Source of the DNA: Nitrospirota bacterium
GTDB taxonomy: Bacteria > Nitrospirota > Thermodesulfovibrionia > Thermodesulfovibrionales > Dissulfurispiraceae
Reading direction: 5' to 3'
Assembly (NCBI GenBank): GCA_016936655.1
Contig: JAFGXL010000037.1
Location: 1-35,977, forward strand
DNA length: 35,977 nt
Numbering within the stretch: the stretch's first letter is position 1; the number at the start of each line of letters is the position of its first letter. The notes under the pieces are model-generated. The model was not told where the DNA came from. It made no database searches and saw only the letters and a list, made by a program, of their open reading frames with translations. The position numbers and the translations under genes were made by a program. Shown piece after piece: positions 4,846-35,114 of the stretch.

Positions 4846-4924
4846 ACAGTTTTATCGGGTTTTTGTTATGCAGCTTAAGTATATCACACTATAATATATG
4901 ATATAATATGCAATCTTTAGAACC
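4846..4924. promoter_or_regulatory. AT-rich divergent promoter region, pseudopilins / trpB
   Basis: This 79-nt spacer separates the minus-strand pseudopilins from plus-strand trpB. For trpB there are two exact TATAAT boxes, 4890-4895 and 4902-4907, without a convincing -35; they would give leaders of only about 23 or 11 nt. For the minus strand TATACT (4883-4878) is a possible -10. No trp leader peptide, attenuator hairpin or T-box is visible. Confidence 0.4.
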
Positions 4925-6127
4925 ATGGAGGTACCCGCCATAAGGCTCCCAGACAAAAAAGGATACTTCGGCAAGTTCGGAGGCAGATTTGTCCCCGAAA
5001 CATTAATATCTGCCCTGAATGAGCTGGAACAGGCATACTCAGAGGCATCAAAAGACCGAGAGTTCCAGAAAAACTTTAAACATCTGCTCAGCACATATGT
5101 TGGCAGGCCTACTTCCCTATACTTTGCGTCAAGACTTACAGAACATCTCTGCGGAGCAAAGATATATCTGAAGCGTGAGGATCTTGCTCACACAGGAGCA
5201 CACAAGATAAATAATGCACTAGGACAAGCCCTGCTCGCAAAAAAAATGGGTAAAAAGCGGATAATCGCTGAAACAGGAGCAGGACAGCATGGAGTAGCAA
5301 CAGCAACAGGGGCAGCACTGACAGGGTTGGAATGCGAAATTTATATGGGTTCAGAAGATATCAAAAGGCAATCACTTAATGTATTCAGGATGCGTCTGCT
5401 GGGAGCAAAAGTCAATGAGGTATCCATAGGATCAAAAACTCTTAAAGACGCTATAAATGAAGCATTGCGCGACTGGACAACAAATGTGCGCACTACACAC
5501 TATGTGATGGGAACTGTTTTTGGTCCTCACCCTTTTCCGCTGATTGTACGAGACTTCCAGTCTGTAATAGGCTCTGAGGCTAAAAAACAGATACTTAAAG
5601 CAGAAGGCAGATTGCCGGACTATCTCGTAGCCTGTGTTGGCGGAGGCAGCAACGCTATGGGGCTTTTTTATGAATTTTTAGATGATAACATAAAAATTAT
5701 CGGAGTAGAAGCAGGCGGCACAGGCATATCCTCCGGAGAGCATGCCGCACGTTTTGCAGGAGGATCAATCGGCATTTTCCAGGGAACTAAGAGCTACCTG
5801 CTTCAGGATGACAATGGCAATGTGCTGGGGACTCACTCTGTATCAGCAGGATTAGATTATGCTGCTGTAGGGCCAGAACACGCATTTTTAAAAGAATCAG
5901 AAAGAGTGCTATATACTTACGCGACTGACGATGAAGCTCTGGCAGCTTTTGACCTGCTTGCAGCAAAAGAGGGCATTATTCCTGCTCTCGAATCATCACA
6001 TGCTCTCGCAGAAGTCATAAAGCTTGCGCCTACTCTGCCCAAGGACAAGATCATCTTGGTTAATCTATCAGGCAGAGGAGACAAAGACGTGCAGCATGTA
6101 GCCAGCTTGAGAGGTGAGGAGCTGTGA
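4925..6127 (+). CDS. trpB: Tryptophan synthase beta chain (TrpB1)
   Basis: A 400-residue canonical TrpB. It shows [14 protein letters not shown] at the N-terminus, the PLP lysine K94 in [11 protein letters not shown], the catalytic glutamate E117 in [15 protein letters not shown] for the cofactor phosphate, and the C-terminal LSGRGDKD. It condenses indole, channelled from TrpA, with serine to give tryptophan. The last codons overlap trpA as GTGA, typical of the tightly coupled alpha/beta pair. The start is uncertain: ATG 4925 has no upstream ribosome site, while GGAGGT lies inside the reading frame at 4927-4932, seven bases before an ATA codon (4940). No other ATG, GTG or TTG is available before the conserved YFG, so ATG 4925 is retained. 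First gene of the trpBA-accD-folC-lptD-truB run. Confidence 0.97.
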
Positions 6128-12137: not shown

Positions 12138-13430
12138 ATGATACAGAGATACACAAGACCTGAGATGGGCAGACTATGGAACCAGGAGAACAGATACAAA
12201 AAATGGCTCGATGTTGAGCTGGCCGCGTGTGAAGCATGGGCAGAGCTGGGCGAGATACCTGCTGATGCACTCGCCACAATAAAGGAAAAAGCTGCTTTTG
12301 ACACAGTAAAAATTGATGAGATCGAAAAAACAGTAAAACATGATGTGATAGCCTTTCTCACCTCTGTTGCCGAGCATATCGGCCCTGATTCCCGCTTTGT
12401 GCATAAAGGACTCACCTCATCGGATGTTGTAGACACATCCCTCTCTCTGCTTATGCGTGAGGCAGCTGACATAATCATTAACGACCTTAAGGCTCTTGGA
12501 GATGTACTGAAGGAGCAGGCTCTTAAAAATAAAGATGTAGCGTGCATGGGCAGAAGCCACGGTGTGCATGCTGAGCCTATGACCTTTGGACTGAAATTCG
12601 CGCTCTGGTACCAGGATCTTAACAGAAACCTGGCACGCATGCAAAAGGCCAGAGAAACAATAAATGTTGGTAAAATTTCCGGAGCTGTAGGCACATTTTC
12701 GAACCTGCCTCCTGAGCTTGAGGAGAAGGTATGCGCAAAGCTAGGCCTAACTCCCGAGCCTGTTGCAACACAGGTAATCCAGCGCGACAGACATGCTGAA
12801 TACATGACGGCTCTTGCACTTATCGCAGCATCTATTGAAAAGATTTCTGTAGAGATAAGACATCTGCAGAGAACAGAGGTGCGAGAGGCTGAAGAGCCAT
12901 TTACATCTGGGCAGAAAGGCTCATCAGCAATGCCTCATAAGAGAAACCCTGTAGGAGCTGAAAATCTTTCTGGCCTCGCCAGAGTCGTCAGGACAAACGC
13001 ACTTGCAGCTATAGAAAACATAGCTCTGTGGCATGAACGAGACATATCTCATTCGTCTGTAGAGAGGATAATAATACCTGACAGCACCATCCTTGTAGAT
13101 TACATGCTTAATCGCATAACCGGCATGCTCAGAAATATGTATATATACCCAGAAAGAATGAAAGAAAATATGGCCAGAAGCTTTGGCCTCTTCAATTCTC
13201 AGAGAGTAATGCTTGCGCTCACAGAAAAGGGCATAACCAGAGAAGACGCATACGCTCTTGTTCAGGCAAATGCGATGAAGAGCTGGTCAAATGCAGAAAG
13301 CTTTCTCGATCTGCTGCTTTCTGACAAAGAGATCGCAAAGCATATTACCCCTGATGAGCTGAAGAATATATTTGATACGAAATACTATCTCAGAAATATT
13401 GACTTTGTTTTCAAGAGGGCTTTTGAATAA
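12138..13430 (+). CDS. purB: Adenylosuccinate lyase
   Basis: A 430-residue member of the fumarase/aspartase superfamily. The signature loop SSAMPHKRNP lies near 256-265, TSSDVVDTS and GRSHGVHAEPMTFG hold the conserved active-site histidine and serine/threonine residues, and the all-helical body has normal length. It catalyses two purine steps, SAICAR to AICAR plus fumarate and adenylosuccinate to AMP plus fumarate. ATG 12138 is preceded by AAGGAGGAG at good spacing. It appears to be monocistronic: the spacer before it carries a palindrome and a strong terminator follows directly. Confidence 0.97.
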   Translation: MIQRYTRPEMGRLWNQENRYKKWLDVELAACEAWAELGEIPADALATIKEKAAFDTVKIDEIEKTVKHDVIAFLTSVAEHIGPDSRFVHKGLTSSDVVDTSLSLLMREAADIIINDLKALGDVLKEQALKNKDVACMGRSHGVHAEPMTFGLKFALWYQDLNRNLARMQKARETINVGKISGAVGTFSNLPPELEEKVCAKLGLTPEPVATQVIQRDRHAEYMTALALIAASIEKISVEIRHLQRTEVREAEEPFTSGQKGSSAMPHKRNPVGAENLSGLARVVRTNALAAIENIALWHERDISHSSVERIIIPDSTILVDYMLNRITGMLRNMYIYPERMKENMARSFGLFNSQRVMLALTEKGITREDAYALVQANAMKSWSNAESFLDLLLSDKEIAKHITPDELKNIFDTKYYLRNIDFVFKRAFE

Positions 13431-13437
13431 AAACATA

Positions 13438-13469
13438 ACCGCCAAAAGTTTACTTTTGGCGGTTTGTTC
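13438..13469 (+). terminator. Rho-independent terminator of purB
   Basis: ACCGCCAAAAGT (13438-13449) pairs perfectly with ACTTTTGGCGGT (13452-13463) and is followed by the modest T-rich tract TTGTT. It starts 8 nt after the purB stop. The T-run is short, so some read-through into the next gene is possible. Confidence 0.8.
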
Positions 13470-13489
13470 CTGTATTCTTTAAATCTGAA

Positions 13490-14140
13490 ATGATAGACCT
13501 TCATACACATACAATATTCAGCGACGGCGAGCTGATACCATCTGAACTTATCAGAAGGGCCTCAGCAAATGGATACAGAGCGCTAGCGATTACTGACCAT
13601 ATGGACCAGTCAAATCTGGACTTTGCTCTGCCCAGAATTCTGAAGGCTCTTGAGAAAATGAAAAAGCATCTGCCTATGCCTGTCATAGCCGGAGCTGAGC
13701 TGACACATGTGCCCCCTGCGCTAATCCCTGAACTAATCAAGGAAGCAAGAGCACTAGGCGCAGGCATTGTAGTGGTGCATGGAGAAACAATTGTGGAGCC
13801 TGTAGCAGAAGGCACAAACAGGGCTGCAATAGAAGGAGGCGCTGATATACTTGCGCACCCCGGACTTATTACAAAAGAGGATGTTGTTCTTGCCAAAGAG
13901 CGTGGAGTACATCTTGAAATAACAGCAAGAAGGGGGCACAGCATCTCAAACGGCCATGTAGCCAAGATGGCTCTGCACTATGGAACCAAGATGGTTCTCA
14001 ATACTGACTCTCATGCACCGTCTGACCTCATAACCAAAGACTTTGGGATAAAGGTGCTGCTTTCAGCTGGGATTGCACCTGAGAATGTTGACGAGGTATT
14101 CATTAACTCAGCAGAACTGGTTAAAAAAACTACAAAATAA
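13490..14140 (+). CDS. PHP-domain metal-dependent phosphoesterase, histidinol-phosphatase family
   Basis: A 216-residue single-domain PHP protein with a full metal-ligand set: H5 and H7 (DLHTH), D12, H37 (ITDH), E70, H97 (VVHGE), H123 (AHPG), and D173/H175 (NTDSH). Such stand-alone proteins hydrolyse phosphomonoesters or nucleotides at a trinuclear metal site; the substrate here is unknown, and histidinol phosphate is only one option. ATG 13490 has no ribosome site and lies 11 nt after TATTCT (13473-13478), itself just beyond the purB terminator, so the mRNA may start within a few bases of the codon. The TPR gene follows after 28 nt, probably in the same transcript. Confidence 0.88.
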   Translation: MIDLHTHTIFSDGELIPSELIRRASANGYRALAITDHMDQSNLDFALPRILKALEKMKKHLPMPVIAGAELTHVPPALIPELIKEARALGAGIVVVHGETIVEPVAEGTNRAAIEGGADILAHPGLITKEDVVLAKERGVHLEITARRGHSISNGHVAKMALHYGTKMVLNTDSHAPSDLITKDFGIKVLLSAGIAPENVDEVFINSAELVKKTTK

Positions 14141-14858: not shown

Positions 14859-14890
14859 ATCAGGAGCATGCCTGAAGGCATGCTCCTGAT
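14859..14890. terminator. Bidirectional terminator between TPR gene and mltD
   Basis: ATCAGGAGCATGCC (14859-14872) and GGCATGCTCCTGAT (14877-14890) form a perfect 14-bp stem with loop TGAA. The plus side is followed by CAAATCTTTTT; read on the minus strand the stem is followed by GAGGTTTTATTTT. It serves two convergent genes, and its right arm includes one base of the mltD stop codon. Confidence 0.88.
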
Positions 14891-16407
14891 CAAATCTTTT
14901 TCGTCCTGCTTTTCTGTTTGCCAGTCTTTTTAATACTCTTCTTTCCACTCACCAGCTTCTTCTTGACTGATGTTTTTTTCTTGCTCTTTTTGGCAGTCCT
15001 AACCACCTTCTTTTTATTGGTCATCTTGTCATCAAGATCAGGCGCATACTTGCCGTCAGGCGGTAGCAACAAGACCTCTCCGGCACTAAGCCTCTCTATG
15101 CCGCCCAGTGAATTCATAGCCAGCAGCGCCTGAATGGGAGTATCTGTTTTTTTGGATATTTTTTTAATCGTGTCTCCTTTTTTTACAACATACTTTTCTA
15201 CACTGAAGAGATCTTCTTCTGGAACCTCATTAAAGTTGTCCATAAAAAATTCTTTTGTTCCGGCAGGTATTCTTACTTTATAGTTCTGAAGGTTTGGCGG
15301 GGTAGACCATCTACGCAGCTCAGGATTAAGTTCCCTTATTTCCGCAACTGTTGTGTCAGCGCATGCGGCTATAACCTGCAGATCAACCGGCCTCTTTAGT
15401 TCCACCTCATCAAAATCCATAGGCTGGTGCAGCTCGAGTTCAGTAAATCCATGGTCTTCAGGAGTATTGGCTATAGTTGCTGCAGCTATAAAACGAGGCA
15501 CATAATTCCTCGTCTCCAATGGCAACTGATTTTTATTCAAAAGCTCCCAATAATCATTGGCATTATTTTTTTTAAGTGTCCGTGCTACCCTGCCCTCTCC
15601 AGCGTTGTATGCTGCAAGGGCGAGCTTCCATGAGCCAAACATCTTGTAAAGATCATTAAGGTAGTCAGCAGCTGCCCTTGTGGATTTCACAGGATCCTTT
15701 CTCTCATCCCTCCACCAATCAATAACCAGCCCGTACCTCTTAGCTGTTCCTGATATAAACTGCCACGGACCTACAGCTCTGGCCTTTGAATAAGCATTTG
15801 TATTGAATCCGCTCTCTATCAACGGTAAAAACACAAGTTCATCGGGCATCTTCCGCTCTTTCAAAACACCCTTCATTATCTCAATGTACTTTGCTGACCT
15901 CTCAAGCCATACAGAAAAACGCTCTCTTATCGTCTCTTTAAAAAGTACAAAACTCCTGTCTATAGCCTTTATCCCCTTTTCATCCTGCGGATAAGACATA
16001 GATAGCGGAAGCTGCTGTGAAGCATCTGCCTGTTTTATAACAGGCTGGCCAGCAAACGGATCGTTGTCTGTTTTGGAAACTGACAGGTCTTCCTCTTGAT
16101 TGCTCCCTGTCTTATGTTTTGCGCGACGGGGTTTATCCTTGCCATCAGATATGGTATCAGACACTTCAGATGTTTTACTGTTTATGCTGTCCTGTCTTTC
16201 ATCATACATGTCAATCTGGGGGAAGGTAATCTCTATTTCAGGCTTTGAAAGCTCTAGATTAGGTGCAGATTCAGAGATTATTGATACATTATTCTCAGGC
16301 TTTGGCAACTGGAGCTGTATCCCTGCCTGATCCTCAGCATTTGCTGAAGCAGAGATTAAAAAAAACGCAGACAGATAGAATATTAGCAGCCCCAAGCATC
16401 GTATCAT
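14890..16407 (-). CDS. mltD: Membrane-bound lytic murein transglycosylase D-like protein
   Basis: A 505-residue MltD-type enzyme. A signal peptide ends near ANA/ED (residue 24); it has no lipobox. A low-complexity linker (25-150) leads to the SLT goose-lysozyme-like domain (about 160-320) with catalytic Glu198 in PLIESGF, then YSKARAVGPWQF and AYNAGEG. One clear LysM repeat (about 404-449, YVVKKGDTIKKIS) binds peptidoglycan, with a weaker LysM-like segment at about 340-382. The last 42 residues are almost all Lys, Arg, Ser and Thr, an unusual cationic tail that may bind acidic wall or LPS groups. The enzyme cleaves murein with formation of 1,6-anhydromuramic ends. ATG 16407 has no ribosome site but lies 9 nt after an exact TATAAT. 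Confidence 0.92.
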   Translation of the reverse strand: MIRCLGLLIFYLSAFFLISASANAEDQAGIQLQLPKPENNVSIISESAPNLELSKPEIEITFPQIDMYDERQDSINSKTSEVSDTISDGKDKPRRAKHKTGSNQEEDLSVSKTDNDPFAGQPVIKQADASQQLPLSMSYPQDEKGIKAIDRSFVLFKETIRERFSVWLERSAKYIEIMKGVLKERKMPDELVFLPLIESGFNTNAYSKARAVGPWQFISGTAKRYGLVIDWWRDERKDPVKSTRAAADYLNDLYKMFGSWKLALAAYNAGEGRVARTLKKNNANDYWELLNKNQLPLETRNYVPRFIAAATIANTPEDHGFTELELHQPMDFDEVELKRPVDLQVIAACADTTVAEIRELNPELRRWSTPPNLQNYKVRIPAGTKEFFMDNFNEVPEEDLFSVEKYVVKKGDTIKKISKKTDTPIQALLAMNSLGGIERLSAGEVLLLPPDGKYAPDLDDKMTNKKKVVRTAKKSKKKTSVKKKLVSGKKSIKKTGKQKSRTKKI

Positions 16408-16416
16408 TAGTTAAAT

Positions 16417-16422
16417 ATTATA
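16417..16422 (-). promoter_or_regulatory. -10 box directly upstream of mltD
   Basis: On the minus strand TATAAT (16422-16417) is followed by 9 nt and then the mltD ATG. Transcription starting 7 nt beyond the box would leave about a 3-nt leader, and no Shine-Dalgarno sequence is present. No good -35 hexamer is visible, so support is from the -10 and spacing only. Confidence 0.45.
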
Positions 16423-22003: not shown

Positions 22004-22336
22004 TTAAAACTTGGAAATTGACTGCGCCACCTTATCGCGCTCTATCATTGTCTCTACAAGAAGATCACGCATTATTGAACACGCATTTACAATCTTTTGA
22101 TTAGATATACTGTAATACACATGCACACCTGAGCGCCTGCTTTTTAATATACCCTTTAATCTCATTACGCTAAGATGTTGCGATACATTAGCCTTAGGAG
22201 TGCCGAGAATATTAACAAGCTCAAGCACAGATTTTTCGCCATCCTTGAGTGCATTGATAATCTCGATCCTCTTTGGACTGGACATTACCTTGCAAAGATC
22301 TGCCTGTAGCTCAAATGCTGTCTTCTGTTTTTTCAT
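22004..22336 (-). CDS. ArsR/SmtB-family winged-helix transcriptional regulator
   Basis: A 110-residue winged-helix protein: LCKVMSSPKRIEIINAL at the dimer/first helix, a recognition helix at about 48-62 (KANVSQHLSVMRLKG) and the wing at about 65-77 (SRRSGVHVYYSI). The classical ELCVCDL metal site is absent. Two cysteines remain, C15 in the N-terminal helix and C86 in the C-terminal helix. Family members with only such a pair include thiol- or reactive-sulfur-responsive regulators, so redox or sulfur sensing is a fair inference. It has its own strong promoter ending only 8 nt before the ATG and no Shine-Dalgarno site. The rnf operon begins 169 nt downstream on the same strand. Confidence 0.9.
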   Translation of the reverse strand: MKKQKTAFELQADLCKVMSSPKRIEIINALKDGEKSVLELVNILGTPKANVSQHLSVMRLKGILKSRRSGVHVYYSISNQKIVNACSIMRDLLVETMIERDKVAQSISKF

Positions 22337-22373
22337 TTACTCAAATTGTATTACTAAATAAAGCAAAGGTCAA
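22337..22373 (-). promoter_or_regulatory. Strong sigma-70-type promoter giving a leaderless arsR mRNA
   Basis: On the minus strand TTGACC (22373-22368), a 17-nt spacer, TACAAT (22350-22345), then 8 nt and ATG 22336. The expected transcription start is about 2 nt before the ATG, leaving no room for a ribosome site. It is the clearest full promoter in the window. Confidence 0.7.
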
Positions 22374-23098: not shown

Positions 23099-23848
23099 TT
23101 AATCCTGCCAGCTGTTCCTAAGGTCCTCTATCGAGGAATAGCTTGTTAGGTCAAGATGCAGAGGAGTAACAGAGACATACCCATTCATAACAGCCTGTAT
23201 ATCATTAGCCTCTGACTGACCCCAGACTGGCTTGCCGCCTCCTATCCAGTAGTACTGTTCTCCACTAGGCGACAAAAGCTCCTGAATTGCGTTGTCATAA
23301 ACCCTTTTGCCCTGTCGTGTAAAGCTTACTCCCTTAATCTGATCGAGAGGGATATTAGGCACGTTGATATTCAATAATATGTCTGACTGCAGCTTCTTCT
23401 GAAGAATATACCCGGCTATTCTCTTGGCAAAAGGCAGCGCGCTATCAAACATAAAAGGCTTATCTCCAGCCATAGATATGGCAAACGAAGATACTCCAAG
23501 GAGCGTCCCTTCCATAGCAGCAGACACTGTGCCGGAATATGTTATGTCATCACCTAGATTTGACCCCTTGTTTATACCTGAAGCTATAAGATCAGGCTTT
23601 CTGGGGAGTATTTTATGAATTCCGAGGGCAACACAGTCTGTAGGCGTTCCATTAACACTGAATACTCTGTCTCTTAACTCTTCTGCCTTTAGAGGCCTGT
23701 GCAGCGTAAGGGCATGACCAACAGCGCTGCGCTCCCTATCAGGAGCCACAACATATACATCTCCAACCTCAGCCATAGCGTTCTGCAGCGCAGTAATTCC
23801 GTGCGAGTGTACTCCGTCGTCATTTGTTACAAGGATAAGCGGTATCAT
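23099..23848 (-). CDS. surE: 5'/3'-nucleotidase (survival protein) SurE
   Basis: A 249-residue SurE. ILVTNDDGVHS with the metal ligands D9 and D10, ERSAVGHALT, and SGINKGSNLGDDITYSGTVS are all present. It removes phosphate from nucleoside monophosphates and short polyphosphates and is linked to stress survival. GAGGAG precedes ATG 23848, which overlaps the stop of the upstream RNase Z-like gene as ATGA. With pcm downstream this forms a three-gene repair-type operon. Confidence 0.96.
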   Translation of the reverse strand: MIPLILVTNDDGVHSHGITALQNAMAEVGDVYVVAPDRERSAVGHALTLHRPLKAEELRDRVFSVNGTPTDCVALGIHKILPRKPDLIASGINKGSNLGDDITYSGTVSAAMEGTLLGVSSFAISMAGDKPFMFDSALPFAKRIAGYILQKKLQSDILLNINVPNIPLDQIKGVSFTRQGKRVYDNAIQELLSPSGEQYYWIGGGKPVWGQSEANDIQAVMNGYVSVTPLHLDLTSYSSIEDLRNSWQD

Positions 23849-24819
23849 ATATCTCCTCTGAAAGCTGCTTCTGCCTCATCAATTATTTCATTCTCTCTGC
23901 CTGTATACTTTGGTGAAAAGTGCATAGTTTGCAGCCTCTTTACGCCGGCATCTTTTGCGATTTTGCCTGCAATTGCTGCTGTCAAATGATTTCTTTCCCT
24001 TGCCCGGTCTATCTCGGCATGCAAAAAAAATGCCTCGCAGAATAACACATCAGCATCTTTGGCAAACTCAGATATTTTTTCAATGTTCTCATCTGCAGGA
24101 GATATATCTGTAGCGTATGTTATCTTCTGACCTTTAGTAAATATGGCGGCAGGCCTTAAATCTGCAAGCGCTATCTGTTTGCCATCAATATTAAAAATTT
24201 TATCGTCAGAAGCCTCTGTTCTTAATGCGTGCTTGAATTCAGTAATCCACCTGCCCACAGAAAGGTTCATCGATGCGAGAGCCTCTTTGTTTATATTTAT
24301 ATGAACACCCTCGTTTATACTGTATGCCAATACAGGCATGCCATGCCAAAGTTCAAGCGCCCTAACAGCAAATCCCTCTTCCTGCAGAATTATGCTTTTA
24401 AAAGAATCAGTGCCAATCTTTAATCTCATAAATTCATTTTCAGCATAAAATCCTGTATGTTTAATCTGAGAGCCGCTCACCTCATAAACATCTATTTTTG
24501 TCGGGTAGCCATGTATGAGATTCCAGGTATAGCCCTTAAGTTTCCCCTCCACCGCATCTGTTACCCCCAACGGTCCGAAAACCCTGAGCGGTGATTCGCG
24601 CCTCAGCAGCACCCTTAGCAGCATATCAAAGCCTATAAAATGATCGATATGCATGTGCGTAATAAATACATCACTCACCTTCATCATATCCGCTGCGCTC
24701 AGCCTGCTTATATCTCCCAGATCAAAAAGCAGAGCCCTGCGCTCTCTCAACAGCCTTAAAAAAAGAGCCGGATCGCCTAATGGATCATTAACTGTCTCAG
24801 CATGAAAAGTGGGCTTCAT
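23845..24819 (-). CDS. RNase Z-like metallo-beta-lactamase-fold hydrolase
   Basis: A 324-residue MBL-fold protein with the metal motif THMHIDH (H55, H57, D59, H60), downstream ligand candidates in RNHLTA, and a closing MHFSPKY that matches the HFS motif of RNase Z-type enzymes. True RNase Z proteins process the 3' end of tRNA precursors; this protein lacks the usual GTS loop near the N-terminus and starts instead with FHAETVNDPLGDPAL, so it belongs to a related group of unproven substrate. The reading frame is open far upstream across galT, but ATG 24819 matches the expected protein start. No ribosome site precedes it; TATAAT lies 9 nt upstream. The stop overlaps surE as ATGA. Confidence 0.85.
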   Translation of the reverse strand: MKPTFHAETVNDPLGDPALFLRLLRERRALLFDLGDISRLSAADMMKVSDVFITHMHIDHFIGFDMLLRVLLRRESPLRVFGPLGVTDAVEGKLKGYTWNLIHGYPTKIDVYEVSGSQIKHTGFYAENEFMRLKIGTDSFKSIILQEEGFAVRALELWHGMPVLAYSINEGVHININKEALASMNLSVGRWITEFKHALRTEASDDKIFNIDGKQIALADLRPAAIFTKGQKITYATDISPADENIEKISEFAKDADVLFCEAFFLHAEIDRARERNHLTAAIAGKIAKDAGVKRLQTMHFSPKYTGRENEIIDEAEAAFRGDI

Positions 24820-24821
24820 AG

Positions 24822-24837
24822 TGCTATAATTATAGCA
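24822..24837. promoter_or_regulatory. Symmetric divergent promoter: palindrome with -10 boxes on both strands
   Basis: TGCTATAATTATAGCA is a perfect 16-bp palindrome containing the extended -10 form TGnTATAAT on each strand. Leftward transcription would start near 24822, about 3 nt before the RNase Z-like gene; rightward transcription would start near 24837, about 74 nt before galT. Good -35 boxes are lacking on both sides, which extended -10 promoters tolerate. Confidence 0.6.
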
Positions 24838-24910: not shown

Positions 24911-25909
24911 ATGCCTGAACTGAGAAAAGACCCTGTATCCGGCAGATGGGTCATTATATCTATTGAGAGAGGGAAGAGGCCTTCAGATTTTTTATCCCCG
25001 AATCTAAAGAGAAAAAACGGAGGGTTCTGTCCTTTTTGTCCAGGGAACGAAAATACAACACCACCTGAGATAATCGCATTCAGACCATCAGACAGCCCTG
25101 CCGACTCTCCTGGCTGGTCGCTAAGGGTTGTATCAAACAAATTCCCAGCCCTCCAGATACAGGGAGATCTCAACAAGATGGGAGAAGGCATATTTGACAA
25201 GATGAACGGCGTTGGAGCTCATGAAGTAATAATCGAGACCCCAGACCATGATAAATCGCTTGCTACCATCAGCCAAAAGTCTGCAGAAGATGTACTTTGG
25301 GCATACTACTTCAGGTTGTCTGACCTAAAAAAAGATATGCGGCTTAAATACGCGCTCATCTTCAAAAACGAGGGTGAGACAGCAGGAGCCTCTCTTGAGC
25401 ACAGCCACAGCCAGCTCATTGCTCTTCCGATAGTTCCCAAGGTAGTCAAAGAAGAGATAGAGACAGCAAAAAAATATTATGAAAATAAAGAGCGCTGCAT
25501 ATTCTGCGACATTATCGTTCAAGAAGCTGCTGCTGACAAGCGAGTTATATACGAAAATGAGCGTTACATAGCGATAGCACCGTTTGCGCCGCGCGAACCT
25601 TTTGAAACATGGATACTGCCCAAAAAACATGAGTCTGCTTTTGCGCCGGCAGACAAAAGCTTCTCCGGTTTGGCAGAGATACTCCAGAGGGTGCTTAGAC
25701 AGCTAGACAAAGTATTGTCTTATCCTCCTTACAATTTCATACTTCACACCTCACCATTCAAGGATGAGCTGAACGAATACTACCACTGGCATATTGAGCT
25801 AGTGCCGAAACTCACAAAGACAGCAGGATTTGAATGGGGATCTGGGTTTTACATAAATCCGACACCGCCTGAAGAAGCAGTGAGATTTATGAAAGAAGCC
25901 AGGATATGA
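24911..25909 (+). CDS. galT: Galactose-1-phosphate (hexose-1-phosphate) uridylyltransferase
   Basis: A 332-residue GalT of the HIT superfamily. The catalytic HxHxQ motif is intact (H164, H166, Q168 in LEHSHSQLIALP), zinc-site cysteines occur at C40/C43 and C196/C199, and HWHIELVPK near 293 is the second family motif. It transfers UMP between glucose-1-phosphate and galactose-1-phosphate. Related proteins use ADP-glucose, and glgA directly downstream makes an ADP-glucose role worth considering. GAGGAGG precedes ATG 24911. An upstream ORF of 22 codons (24850-24918) covers the leader and overlaps the start. The stop overlaps glgA as ATGA. Confidence 0.9.
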   Translation: MPELRKDPVSGRWVIISIERGKRPSDFLSPNLKRKNGGFCPFCPGNENTTPPEIIAFRPSDSPADSPGWSLRVVSNKFPALQIQGDLNKMGEGIFDKMNGVGAHEVIIETPDHDKSLATISQKSAEDVLWAYYFRLSDLKKDMRLKYALIFKNEGETAGASLEHSHSQLIALPIVPKVVKEEIETAKKYYENKERCIFCDIIVQEAAADKRVIYENERYIAIAPFAPREPFETWILPKKHESAFAPADKSFSGLAEILQRVLRQLDKVLSYPPYNFILHTSPFKDELNEYYHWHIELVPKLTKTAGFEWGSGFYINPTPPEEAVRFMKEARI

Positions 25910-32766: not shown

Positions 32767-34128
32767 CTATCTATTCCCCTGCACTATTTTATCCGCAAGC
32801 TCCATACTGTTTGCTATTGAGTCATTCACGCTCACCCCACGGTAAGCATTGCCGGCAAGGTAAATATTTTTATGCTTTGAAATCTTCTCATCAAGAGCTG
32901 CCAGCTTTTCATGATGTCCGACAAGATATTGCGGTATAGCCTTCTCCCATCTGTATGTCCATATAAAATCAGGCTCTGGATCAACCTTTGCTATATCCTT
33001 CAGCTCAGCCCTTACTGTTGACACAAGCTTGTCTGGCTCCATCATGCCCAGCTCCGGCTGTCTTGCACCTCCAACCATAGAACGGAGCATCACATAGCCT
33101 TCAGGAGCTCTATTTGTAAAAATGGATGAATCATATAACGTGCCGAGCAGCTTACGCTTTTCTTTGCCGGGCACAAGAAATCCAAAAAGGTCTGTATCTA
33201 TCTTCAGCTTCTCCTTTTTGTATCCGAAGGCTGCGACAGATAGAGGAGGATATGGCGTCTCAAAAAGTATATCTGCTATACCTTTATCCATATCCGCCAT
33301 TATTTCAGCGGTGTTATAGGCAGGAGAAGCAAAGACTACGCAGTCAGCCTCATGCCATGAACCATCTTCAGTAAGAACAGAATAGACGCTGCCTTTCTTT
33401 TCTATACCCTTCACTGCGTTGCCTGTCTTTACCCTACTGCCAAGGCTGTTGCACAAAGCATCAACAAGGCTGCCCATGCCGCCAGAAAAAGACATCAGCG
33501 TTCCTCCGGGGCCAGCCTCTACCTTTTTACCGCTCTTTTTATTTTCCTTTCCAATAGCCATGAAGCCCTTTATCAGCCCTCCATGTTTCTGCTCCAGATC
33601 ATACACCTTGCCAAAGCAGCTTCTTATGCTCATCTTCGCCGGATCTCCGGCATAAATACCTGATGCCATAGGATCAAGCAGCTTTTCGAGAAACTCTCTT
33701 CCAACTCTTCTGACAGCAAACTCTTCCAGAGACTCATCCTCATACACCTTTTTAGGCACAAAAAACTCTGACATCATCCTCAGCCTGCCGCCAACAGACA
33801 GGAAATTAGACATTAAAAAAGAGACCGGAGTCTCTGGTATCCTCTTCAGCTCTCCATCAAGACATATGTATCTCTTTCTGCTGCTGTCATTGCTCTTTAG
33901 CGCCTCAATGTTCAGACTCTTTGCCAGCTCAAGCGTAGATGGCTTGTTGTCAAGAAAGCCGTTAACTCCTGCCTCGCAAAGGTACCCGTCAACCTTTTCT
34001 GTGCGTATCTTTCCTCCAGCCTGTTTTTCACCTTCAAAAACCGTCACATCCAGCTTTGGATCCCTCTGCAGGAGCCCAAAAGCAAGAGACAGACCCGATA
34101 TGCCTGCACCTGCAATAATGACTCTCAT
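32767..34128 (-). CDS. hemG: Protoporphyrinogen oxidase (oxygen-dependent, HemG/HemY flavoprotein type)
   Basis: A 453-residue FAD oxidase. The dinucleotide fold MRVIIAGAGISGLSLAFGL and EGEKQAGGKIRTE at the N-terminus, GGMGSLVDAL in the middle and IYLAGNAYRGVSVNDSI at the C-terminus are typical of HemY/PPOX proteins. It oxidises protoporphyrinogen IX to protoporphyrin IX; whether it prefers coproporphyrinogen cannot be told. An in-frame GTG lies two codons upstream, but ATG 34128 overlaps the hemH stop as ATGA and has AGGTG in front of it. The enzyme normally needs O2, notable beside an Rnf operon. It is the last gene of the ubiX to hemG cluster. Confidence 0.93.
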   Translation of the reverse strand: MRVIIAGAGISGLSLAFGLLQRDPKLDVTVFEGEKQAGGKIRTEKVDGYLCEAGVNGFLDNKPSTLELAKSLNIEALKSNDSSRKRYICLDGELKRIPETPVSFLMSNFLSVGGRLRMMSEFFVPKKVYEDESLEEFAVRRVGREFLEKLLDPMASGIYAGDPAKMSIRSCFGKVYDLEQKHGGLIKGFMAIGKENKKSGKKVEAGPGGTLMSFSGGMGSLVDALCNSLGSRVKTGNAVKGIEKKGSVYSVLTEDGSWHEADCVVFASPAYNTAEIMADMDKGIADILFETPYPPLSVAAFGYKKEKLKIDTDLFGFLVPGKEKRKLLGTLYDSSIFTNRAPEGYVMLRSMVGGARQPELGMMEPDKLVSTVRAELKDIAKVDPEPDFIWTYRWEKAIPQYLVGHHEKLAALDEKISKHKNIYLAGNAYRGVSVNDSIANSMELADKIVQGNR

Positions 34129-35078
34129 ATCCACCTCATGTGCTCAAGATTTTTTACAGCAATACCGCAAAGCGCTTTTATAAACTTTTCAGAAGTATTT
34201 AGCGACTCTGCCCGTTTCAGATTTATTCCAAGACGAGCCGCCATATCAGCATAAAGCATATCAATCTCATAAAGTGTCTCTATATGATCAGAGACAAAAC
34301 TGACAGGCACAACCAGCAGATTCTTTACACACTTTGCTCCAAGGGATTCGAGCATCTCTTCAGTTGAAGGCTCCAGCCACTTTACAGGACCGCTCTTTGA
34401 CTGAAAAGAGAGGTGCCAATCCATATCTATATGCTTCATAACCTCAGCAATTGTGCCCTTAGTTTCATTAAAATATGGATCTCCCTCATCAATAAACTTC
34501 TGAGGCAGGCTGTGCGCACTGAAGAGAAGTACAGGTTTTTCAGAAAATTGTGTCCTTGCAGCCTCTATCTTTTCGACAAGAGCATCTATGTATAACGGAT
34601 CATTGAACCATGTGCCAGCGCAGAAGTACTGAAATCCGTAGTTGGAAGCAGCCTTTTCAAATGCGCTAACAGACGACCCCGTTGTAGCAACAGAATATTG
34701 GGGATATAGGCTTAAAGCTATCACTTTTTTAACCCCATCTTTGTTCATTTTCAGAGCTGTATCCTCTATAAAAGGATGCCAGTACCTCATGCCAACATAG
34801 ACCTTTACATCACAAATGCCCGACGCCTTTATAGCATTCTCAAGCAGTTTTGCCTGGGCATCTGTAATTTCGGCTATTGGAGATCTGCCGCCGATAAGTT
34901 TGTAGAGTGCGGATGTCTTTTTTGATCTGGTTCTGGATATCAAAGAAGCGATAGGTTTCTGCATAAACGCAGGCCCGAGTCTTATGATATCCCTGTCAGA
35001 AAAAAGGTTGTAAAGAAAAGGCCTGACAGCATCAAGCGAATCAGGACCGCCGAGATTTAAGAGGATAATGCCTATCAC
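34125..35078 (-). CDS. hemH: Ferrochelatase
   Basis: A 317-residue ferrochelatase. NLGGPDSLDAVRPFL at the N-terminus, the metal-site histidine H189 in FSAHSLPQKFIDEGDPY, and E267 in SFVSDHIETLYEID are intact. It inserts Fe2+ into protoporphyrin IX (or coproporphyrin III in some lineages). The start is GTG 35078, giving the normal short N-terminus MIGIILLNLGG; no better ATG exists. A -10-like TATTCT ends 6 nt before it, so the transcript may begin at the GTG itself. The TGA overlaps the hemG start as ATGA. Confidence 0.95.
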   Translation of the reverse strand: MIGIILLNLGGPDSLDAVRPFLYNLFSDRDIIRLGPAFMQKPIASLISRTRSKKTSALYKLIGGRSPIAEITDAQAKLLENAIKASGICDVKVYVGMRYWHPFIEDTALKMNKDGVKKVIALSLYPQYSVATTGSSVSAFEKAASNYGFQYFCAGTWFNDPLYIDALVEKIEAARTQFSEKPVLLFSAHSLPQKFIDEGDPYFNETKGTIAEVMKHIDMDWHLSFQSKSGPVKWLEPSTEEMLESLGAKCVKNLLVVPVSFVSDHIETLYEIDMLYADMAARLGINLKRAESLNTSEKFIKALCGIAVKNLEHMRWI

Positions 35079-35084
35079 AGCTCT

Positions 35085-35114
35085 AGAATACAGAATTGAA
35101 GGTTAATGATTCAA
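35085..35114 (-). promoter_or_regulatory. Possible promoter directly at hemH
   Basis: On the minus strand TTGAAT (35114-35109), an 18-nt spacer and TATTCT (35090-35085). The predicted start of transcription falls on the first base of the GTG start codon. hemH may also be read from the upstream ubiX unit, so this would be an internal promoter. Confidence 0.4.

Follow-up and report, generated by a model that had tools for sequence, protein, structure and literature searches.

We found evidence that, in a clade of Nitrospirota, a substantial minority of operon-first genes are very probably translated from leaderless or near-leaderless messages produced by sigma-70-type promoters. The finding originated in the window, a stretch of 35,977 nt that constitutes contig JAFGXL010000037.1 (contig 25 of 42) of the 1.99-Mb genome of a Nitrospirota bacterium of the Dissulfurispiraceae (assembly GCA_016936655.1). 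The nearest relatives of the RnfC encoded in the window are Nitrospirota MAGs with ~59-73% identity, several of which are named Nitrospiraceae or Thermodesulfovibrionales, and no Rfam families or tRNAs were found in the window. The position of the promoters, the absence of Shine-Dalgarno (SD) sequences, the enrichment of this arrangement across the genome and its conservation among relatives were all observed directly. They suggest that operon-first genes with an adjoining promoter and no SD probably give rise to messages that start at the start codon or a few bases before it, and that would be recognized by the ribosome through an SD-independent route. The original prediction, according to which this lineage may routinely use leaderless initiation, is supported by a genome-wide tabulation and by gene-by-gene conservation, with SD-led initiation still representing the majority.

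Five genes of the window illustrate the arrangement (Table 1). Their -10 boxes, previously proposed to lie 8, 9, 9, 6 and 11 nt before the starts of arsR, mltD, the RNase Z-like gene, hemH and the PHP gene, were all confirmed base by base, as was the full arsR promoter (TTGACC-17-TACAAT-8-ATG). We additionally identified two -35 boxes that had been missed, TTGAAT for hemH and TTTACT for the PHP gene, both with a spacer of 18 nt. Taking 6 nt as the usual separation of the -10 box from +1, only hemH presents zero-leader spacing; leaders of ~2, 3, 3 and 5 nt are predicted for arsR, mltD, the RNase Z-like gene and the PHP gene, respectively. The original prediction also contrasted these starts, described as lacking an SD, with strongly SD-bearing genes inside operons. 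Indeed, all five starts have SD log-odds between -5 and -7, and surE, the Rnf genes and the receiver gene do carry the contrasting SDs. Being first in an operon does not, however, imply leaderless initiation, since several operon-first genes of the window are strongly SD-led: those starting at 1800 and 21835 on the minus strand and at 12138 and 24911.

Table 1. Promoter elements and genes discussed in the text (positions are those of the window).
Feature	Position	Strand	Remarks
PHP gene -35 box TTTACT	13449..13454	+	18-nt spacer; TTTACT/TTTACA conserved; overlaps loop of terminator-like hairpin
PHP gene -10 box TATTCT	13473..13478	+	11 nt before ATG 13490
PHP-domain protein, predicted very short leader (~5 nt)	13490..14140	+	Pfam PHP; start aligned in all 30 orthologues
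MltD-like lytic transglycosylase (SLT + LysM), predicted near-leaderless (~3 nt)	14890..16407	-	Leaderless posterior 0.98
mltD -10 box TATAAT	16417..16422	-	9 nt before ATG 16407
ArsR-family regulator, predicted near-leaderless (~2 nt)	22004..22336	-	Pfam HTH_5; alignment with most orthologues starts at residue 1
arsR -10 box TACAAT	22345..22350	-	17-nt spacer from -35; 8 nt before ATG 22336
arsR -35 box TTGACC	22368..22373	-	TTGACC/TTGACT/TTGACA plus TAnnAT-type box in most of 26 orthologues
RNase Z-like metallo-beta-lactamase-fold protein, predicted near-leaderless (~3 nt)	23845..24819	-	Pfam Lactamase_B_2; start conserved
RNase Z-like -10 box TATAAT	24829..24834	-	9 nt before ATG 24819
Perfect palindrome TATAATTATA, candidate shared bidirectional -10 element	24825..24834	both	Includes the RNase Z-like TATAAT
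GalT-like nucleotidyltransferase, divergent neighbour	24911..25909	+	Pfam GalP_UDP_transf; SD-led GAGGAGG-AATA-ATG
Ferrochelatase hemH, GTG start, predicted leaderless (0 nt)	34125..35078	-	Pfam Ferrochelatase
hemH -10 box TATTCT	35085..35090	-	6 nt before GTG 35078
hemH -35 box TTGAAT	35109..35114	-	18-nt spacer; TTGAAT/TTGATT/TTGCAT conserved in family

Several features were noted alongside these starts. A terminator-like hairpin (13441-13470; CCGCCAAAAG-TTTA-CTTTTGGCGG-TTTGTT) is located 3' of the adenylosuccinate lyase gene, and the -35 box of the PHP gene shares bases with its loop, forming a terminator-promoter overlap. The ArsR-type regulator is conserved across the order with 56-83% identity; its conserved N-terminal E(L/M)Q stretch ends in Cys15 before the HTH, a possible sensing residue. 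Finally, a trpB-like gene at 4925 is devoid of SD and presents TATAAT 17 nt before its ATG (region 4890-4925). Its predicted leader of ~11 nt is intermediate between leaderless and leadered, and the gene is preceded by an AT-rich intergenic region in which both strands carry near-symmetric boxes.

The genome-wide analysis was conducted on 1.26 Mb (63%) of the genome, in which 1167 genes were called with a dicodon model. Start codons were those of our own gene caller. Since starts based on coding score only were too imprecise (that of mltD was off by 12 nt), they were re-chosen using a model with knowledge of SD sequences but blind to -10 boxes. With the coding-only starts, near-consensus -10 boxes peaked exactly 6 nt before operon-first starts but not before operon-internal starts. 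With the re-chosen starts, 202 operon-first genes were found to be SD-less, and these presented 68 boxes matching at least 5/6 consensus positions at a gap of 5-9 nt (in 67 genes), relative to 13.4 expected (~5-fold; Poisson p ~3e-26), whereas SD-led first genes presented a single such box against 24.6 expected. The distances from boxes to starts therefore peak at 5-9 nt before SD-less operon-first genes, and almost none fall in this range before SD-led genes. The modal gap among SD-less first genes is 6 nt, a distance at which the usual +1 coincides with the first nucleotide of the start codon.

This excess extends to other subsets of genes and genomes. The strongest effect was observed for the 31 SD-less genes for which only one start was plausible (12 boxes at a gap of 5-9 nt vs 2.0 expected); in the same test, SD-bearing first genes presented 2 boxes vs 6.2 expected. 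Operon-internal genes of the window genome displayed a weaker excess (12 vs 3.1 in 105 genes), possibly reflecting misjudged operon borders, and no clear excess was detected for operon-internal genes of three other genomes. Exact TATAAT boxes at a gap of 5-9 nt were 10-fold overrepresented (38 vs 3.8 expected) across four genomes comprising 373 SD-less first genes. Finally, an EM mixture initialized with a flat gap prior settled on TATAAT, with a gap mode of 6 nt, and no such motif was found by EM in dinucleotide-shuffled decoys. Uncorrected, this mixture classified 32% of first genes as leaderless, which we treat as an upper figure because decoys analyzed with the frozen motif still yielded 17%. 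Calibration against shuffles and shifted windows placed about a third (33%) of SD-less first genes above chance, corresponding to ~12% of first genes. Based on these two figures, it is well supported that leaderless or near-leaderless initiation is used by ~10-30% of operon-first genes in this lineage; SD-led initiation is the majority among first genes.

We then considered the conservation of the five promoters across orthologues obtained from up to 40 relatives, with the RNase Z-like gene additionally searched phylum-wide. The TATAAT of the RNase Z-like gene was found at a gap of 9-10 nt in 20/20 same-family genomes inspected, at a gap of 5 nt in several other families of the order and at a gap of 9 nt in family f10. 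It was not found in other classes, where the gene mostly follows a co-directional neighbor. In another Nitrospirota family (f21; loci L308-L314), the RNase Z-like gene is mostly located 15-20 nt after a co-directional gene, mostly without a -10 box or an SD. For arsR, the pattern TTGAC-17/18-TAnnAT was recovered at a gap of mostly 6-10 nt, and 22 of the 26 orthologues scored above the 95th percentile of shuffles. The PHP gene presented TTTAC-17/18-TATnnT at a gap of 10-14 nt in the family and of 6 nt in several families of the order. For hemH, TTGAAT-17/18-TATnnT was found at a gap of 6-7 nt in 19/21 same-family orthologues, and the pattern was lost outside the family. The 9-nt gap of mltD is identical in the same-genus genome, and many relatives possess TTGACA/T plus a box at a gap of 8-10 nt. 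SD sequences were virtually absent from these orthologues (0/26 for arsR, 0/45 for the RNase Z-like gene, 1/30 for the PHP gene, 1/29 for mltD and 3/28 for hemH).

Conservation was also apparent beyond the five genes. Orthologous first genes compared between two genera of the family tended to belong to the same class (leaderless in both, 8; leaderless and SD-led, 1; SD-led and leaderless, 2; SD-led in both, 24; p=1.6e-5). Pooled loci from named Nitrospirota displayed the same enrichment, as did three more genomes of the order, sampled over 400, 200 and 200 kb; E. coli (200 kb) and pooled Firmicutes loci had hardly any SD-less first genes and lacked the peak. Within Nitrospirota, our genome-wide sampling covers the Thermodesulfovibrionales-like order.

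These results bear on the possibility that the original boxes arose by chance, through lenient matches in the AT-rich upstream regions of a handful of genes. Boxes matching 4/6 positions, such as TATTCT, are common (~24/506 first genes per position, or ~5%) and the original spacings had been chosen freely between 6 and 11 nt. Because a single 4/6 box near a start is weak evidence alone, the boxes of hemH and the PHP gene rest on their conservation. Chance is nevertheless extremely unlikely as a general explanation given the genome-wide excess and the conservation across ~20 genera, which refutes it for at least four of the five genes; mltD is backed mainly by its congener and by the related arrangement in the family. 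Alternatively, the start codons could be wrong, the true starts lying downstream with SDs and normal leaders. Start prediction is generally uncertain and the start of mltD shifts by one codon between two same-genus genomes. We consider this very unlikely, however: from 34 nt upstream to 150 nt downstream of the five starts, no alternative in-frame start reaches an SD log-odds of +1, and, for arsR, the RNase Z-like gene and the PHP gene, alignments with orthologues begin at residue 1 in ~23 or more genomes. No conserved alternative start with a ribosome site was thus found near the five starts, and the genes with unambiguous starts are those with the strongest enrichment.

The sequences surrounding the boxes also resemble those of sigma-70-type promoters. 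Across 111 box-aligned promoters from three genomes, T and G were found at positions -15/-14 in 49% and 48% of cases, respectively, corresponding to an extended -10, and TTG-like bases were observed at -36 to -34. Matches to the -35 element peaked at a spacer of 17-18 nt in all four genomes tested. A TG upstream of the box and a -35 element at ~17 nt are the hallmarks of sigma-70 extended -10 promoters. ATG was the start codon of 107 of the 111 genes of the leaderless class relative to 407/493 SD-led first genes (p=5e-5), a preference for AUG that is consistent with leaderless initiation in E. coli as given in PMC3898074. A second promoter class was also considered from the motif shared by hemH and the PHP gene (TGTATYCT) but was rejected, as this motif does not recur genome-wide at the spacing of these two genes.

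The same properties help to evaluate a model in which transcripts are leadered but SD-independent, beginning well upstream, with an AT-rich S1-type or unstructured entry site mimicking -10 boxes. Among the 202 SD-less first genes, about two in three indeed have no near-consensus box at leaderless spacing, so that some of them may rely on weaker boxes, other sigma factors or longer non-SD leaders, or may be mis-started. Promoters located further upstream may also yield leadered messages. As an explanation of the boxes themselves, this model is very improbable: the signal is an extended -10 that is phased and paired with a -35 at a spacer of 17-18 nt, not general AT-richness, shuffles of the same composition reach only 10% against the 40% observed, and the promoter is kept among orthologues of the five genes as the remaining upstream sequence diverges.

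One of the promoters suggests a more elaborate architecture. The TATAAT of the RNase Z-like gene is embedded in the perfect palindrome TATAATTATA, of which only 5 copies exist in the 1.26 Mb of the window genome. The divergent GalT-like gene is oriented in this way and SD-led in 32/32 loci where it was found. Among these, 23 retain TATAATTATA and six others present two back-to-back -10 boxes; the palindrome is conserved across most of the family and in one other family of the order. The palindrome places a symmetrical -10 between divergent genes, as expected of bidirectional promoters, and the sequence predicts a divergent pair of transcription start sites ~15 bp apart, bidirectional promoters being defined by distances of 7-25 bp. 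We tentatively propose that TATAATTATA could act as one element feeding both a near-leaderless RNase Z-like message and an SD-led GalT-like message, such that the two initiation routes might be balanced when leaderless translation is favored. A pseudo-symmetric -10 between divergent genes is likewise described for the bidirectional promoters summarized in PMC10268837 (citing Warman et al. 2021); relative to that summary, the present locus differs in that one direction is predicted to be near-leaderless and the other SD-led, an arrangement conserved across genera.

Leaderless initiation from sigma-70-type promoters remains the explanation that we favor for the lineage as a whole. In this order-level, Thermodesulfovibrionales-like clade, such promoters, often combining an extended -10 with a -35 placed 17-18 nt away, would drive the first genes concerned. 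Transcription would begin at the start codon or 0-5 nt before it, so close that an SD could not fit in the message. As in leaderless mRNAs that have been studied, the 5'-terminal AUG or GUG would probably be read without SD pairing by a 70S ribosome or by a 30S subunit loaded with initiator tRNA. SD-led initiation would serve the remaining first genes and most operon-internal genes.

This is a known mechanism in a new lineage. The share of leaderless genes has been estimated at 19% in Actinobacteria, 39% in Deinococcus-Thermus and 27% in Aquificae (Zheng et al. 2011, PMC3160421), and a later survey cited in PMC9581028 predicted leaderless transcription in 21.6% of bacterial species. The TA-led genes described in PMC3160421 resemble those reported here: they present TATAAT/TAnnnT ~10-12 bp upstream of the start and no SD, they are mixed with SD-led genes within a single genome, and the motif given for medium-GC genomes (TAtaaT) is similar to ours. 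The main text of that study contains no match for Nitrospira, Thermodesulfovibrio or Leptospirillum, and we found no published report of leaderless initiation in Thermodesulfovibrionia or other Nitrospirota in the literature searched. In Deinococcus-Thermus, the -10 is also located a few bp upstream of the ORF, and experiments established leaderless mRNAs adjacent to a -10 for roughly one third of the genes of D. radiodurans (PMC12340547), whereas ours are predicted from sequence. The Deinococcus motif (TANNNT) works without a -35 (PMC12340547); the present motif is nearer to TATAAT and often accompanied by TG and a -35. Finally, experiments in M. tuberculosis show that about a quarter of the genes possessing a primary TSS are transcribed from within 5 bp of their start codon, and extended -10 boxes are present there as they are here (PMC3898074). 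In that species, however, a -35 motif was not detected, only 7% of TANNNT boxes are preceded by TGn, and ATG and GTG are used similarly in leaderless and leadered genes, in contrast to the TG, the -35 and the almost exclusive use of ATG observed here.

Our results add a Nitrospirota clade to the bacteria in which leaderless initiation looks common. Leaderless starts are one possible reason for the modest frequency of SD sequences in Thermodesulfovibrionia, where 45% of mRNAs bear an SD (PMC10783764). Taking them into account may improve the annotation of start codons in MAGs of the Thermodesulfovibrionales-like group. The RNase Z-like gene, arsR and hemH constitute conserved test cases for understanding why some genes remain leaderless over long evolutionary times.
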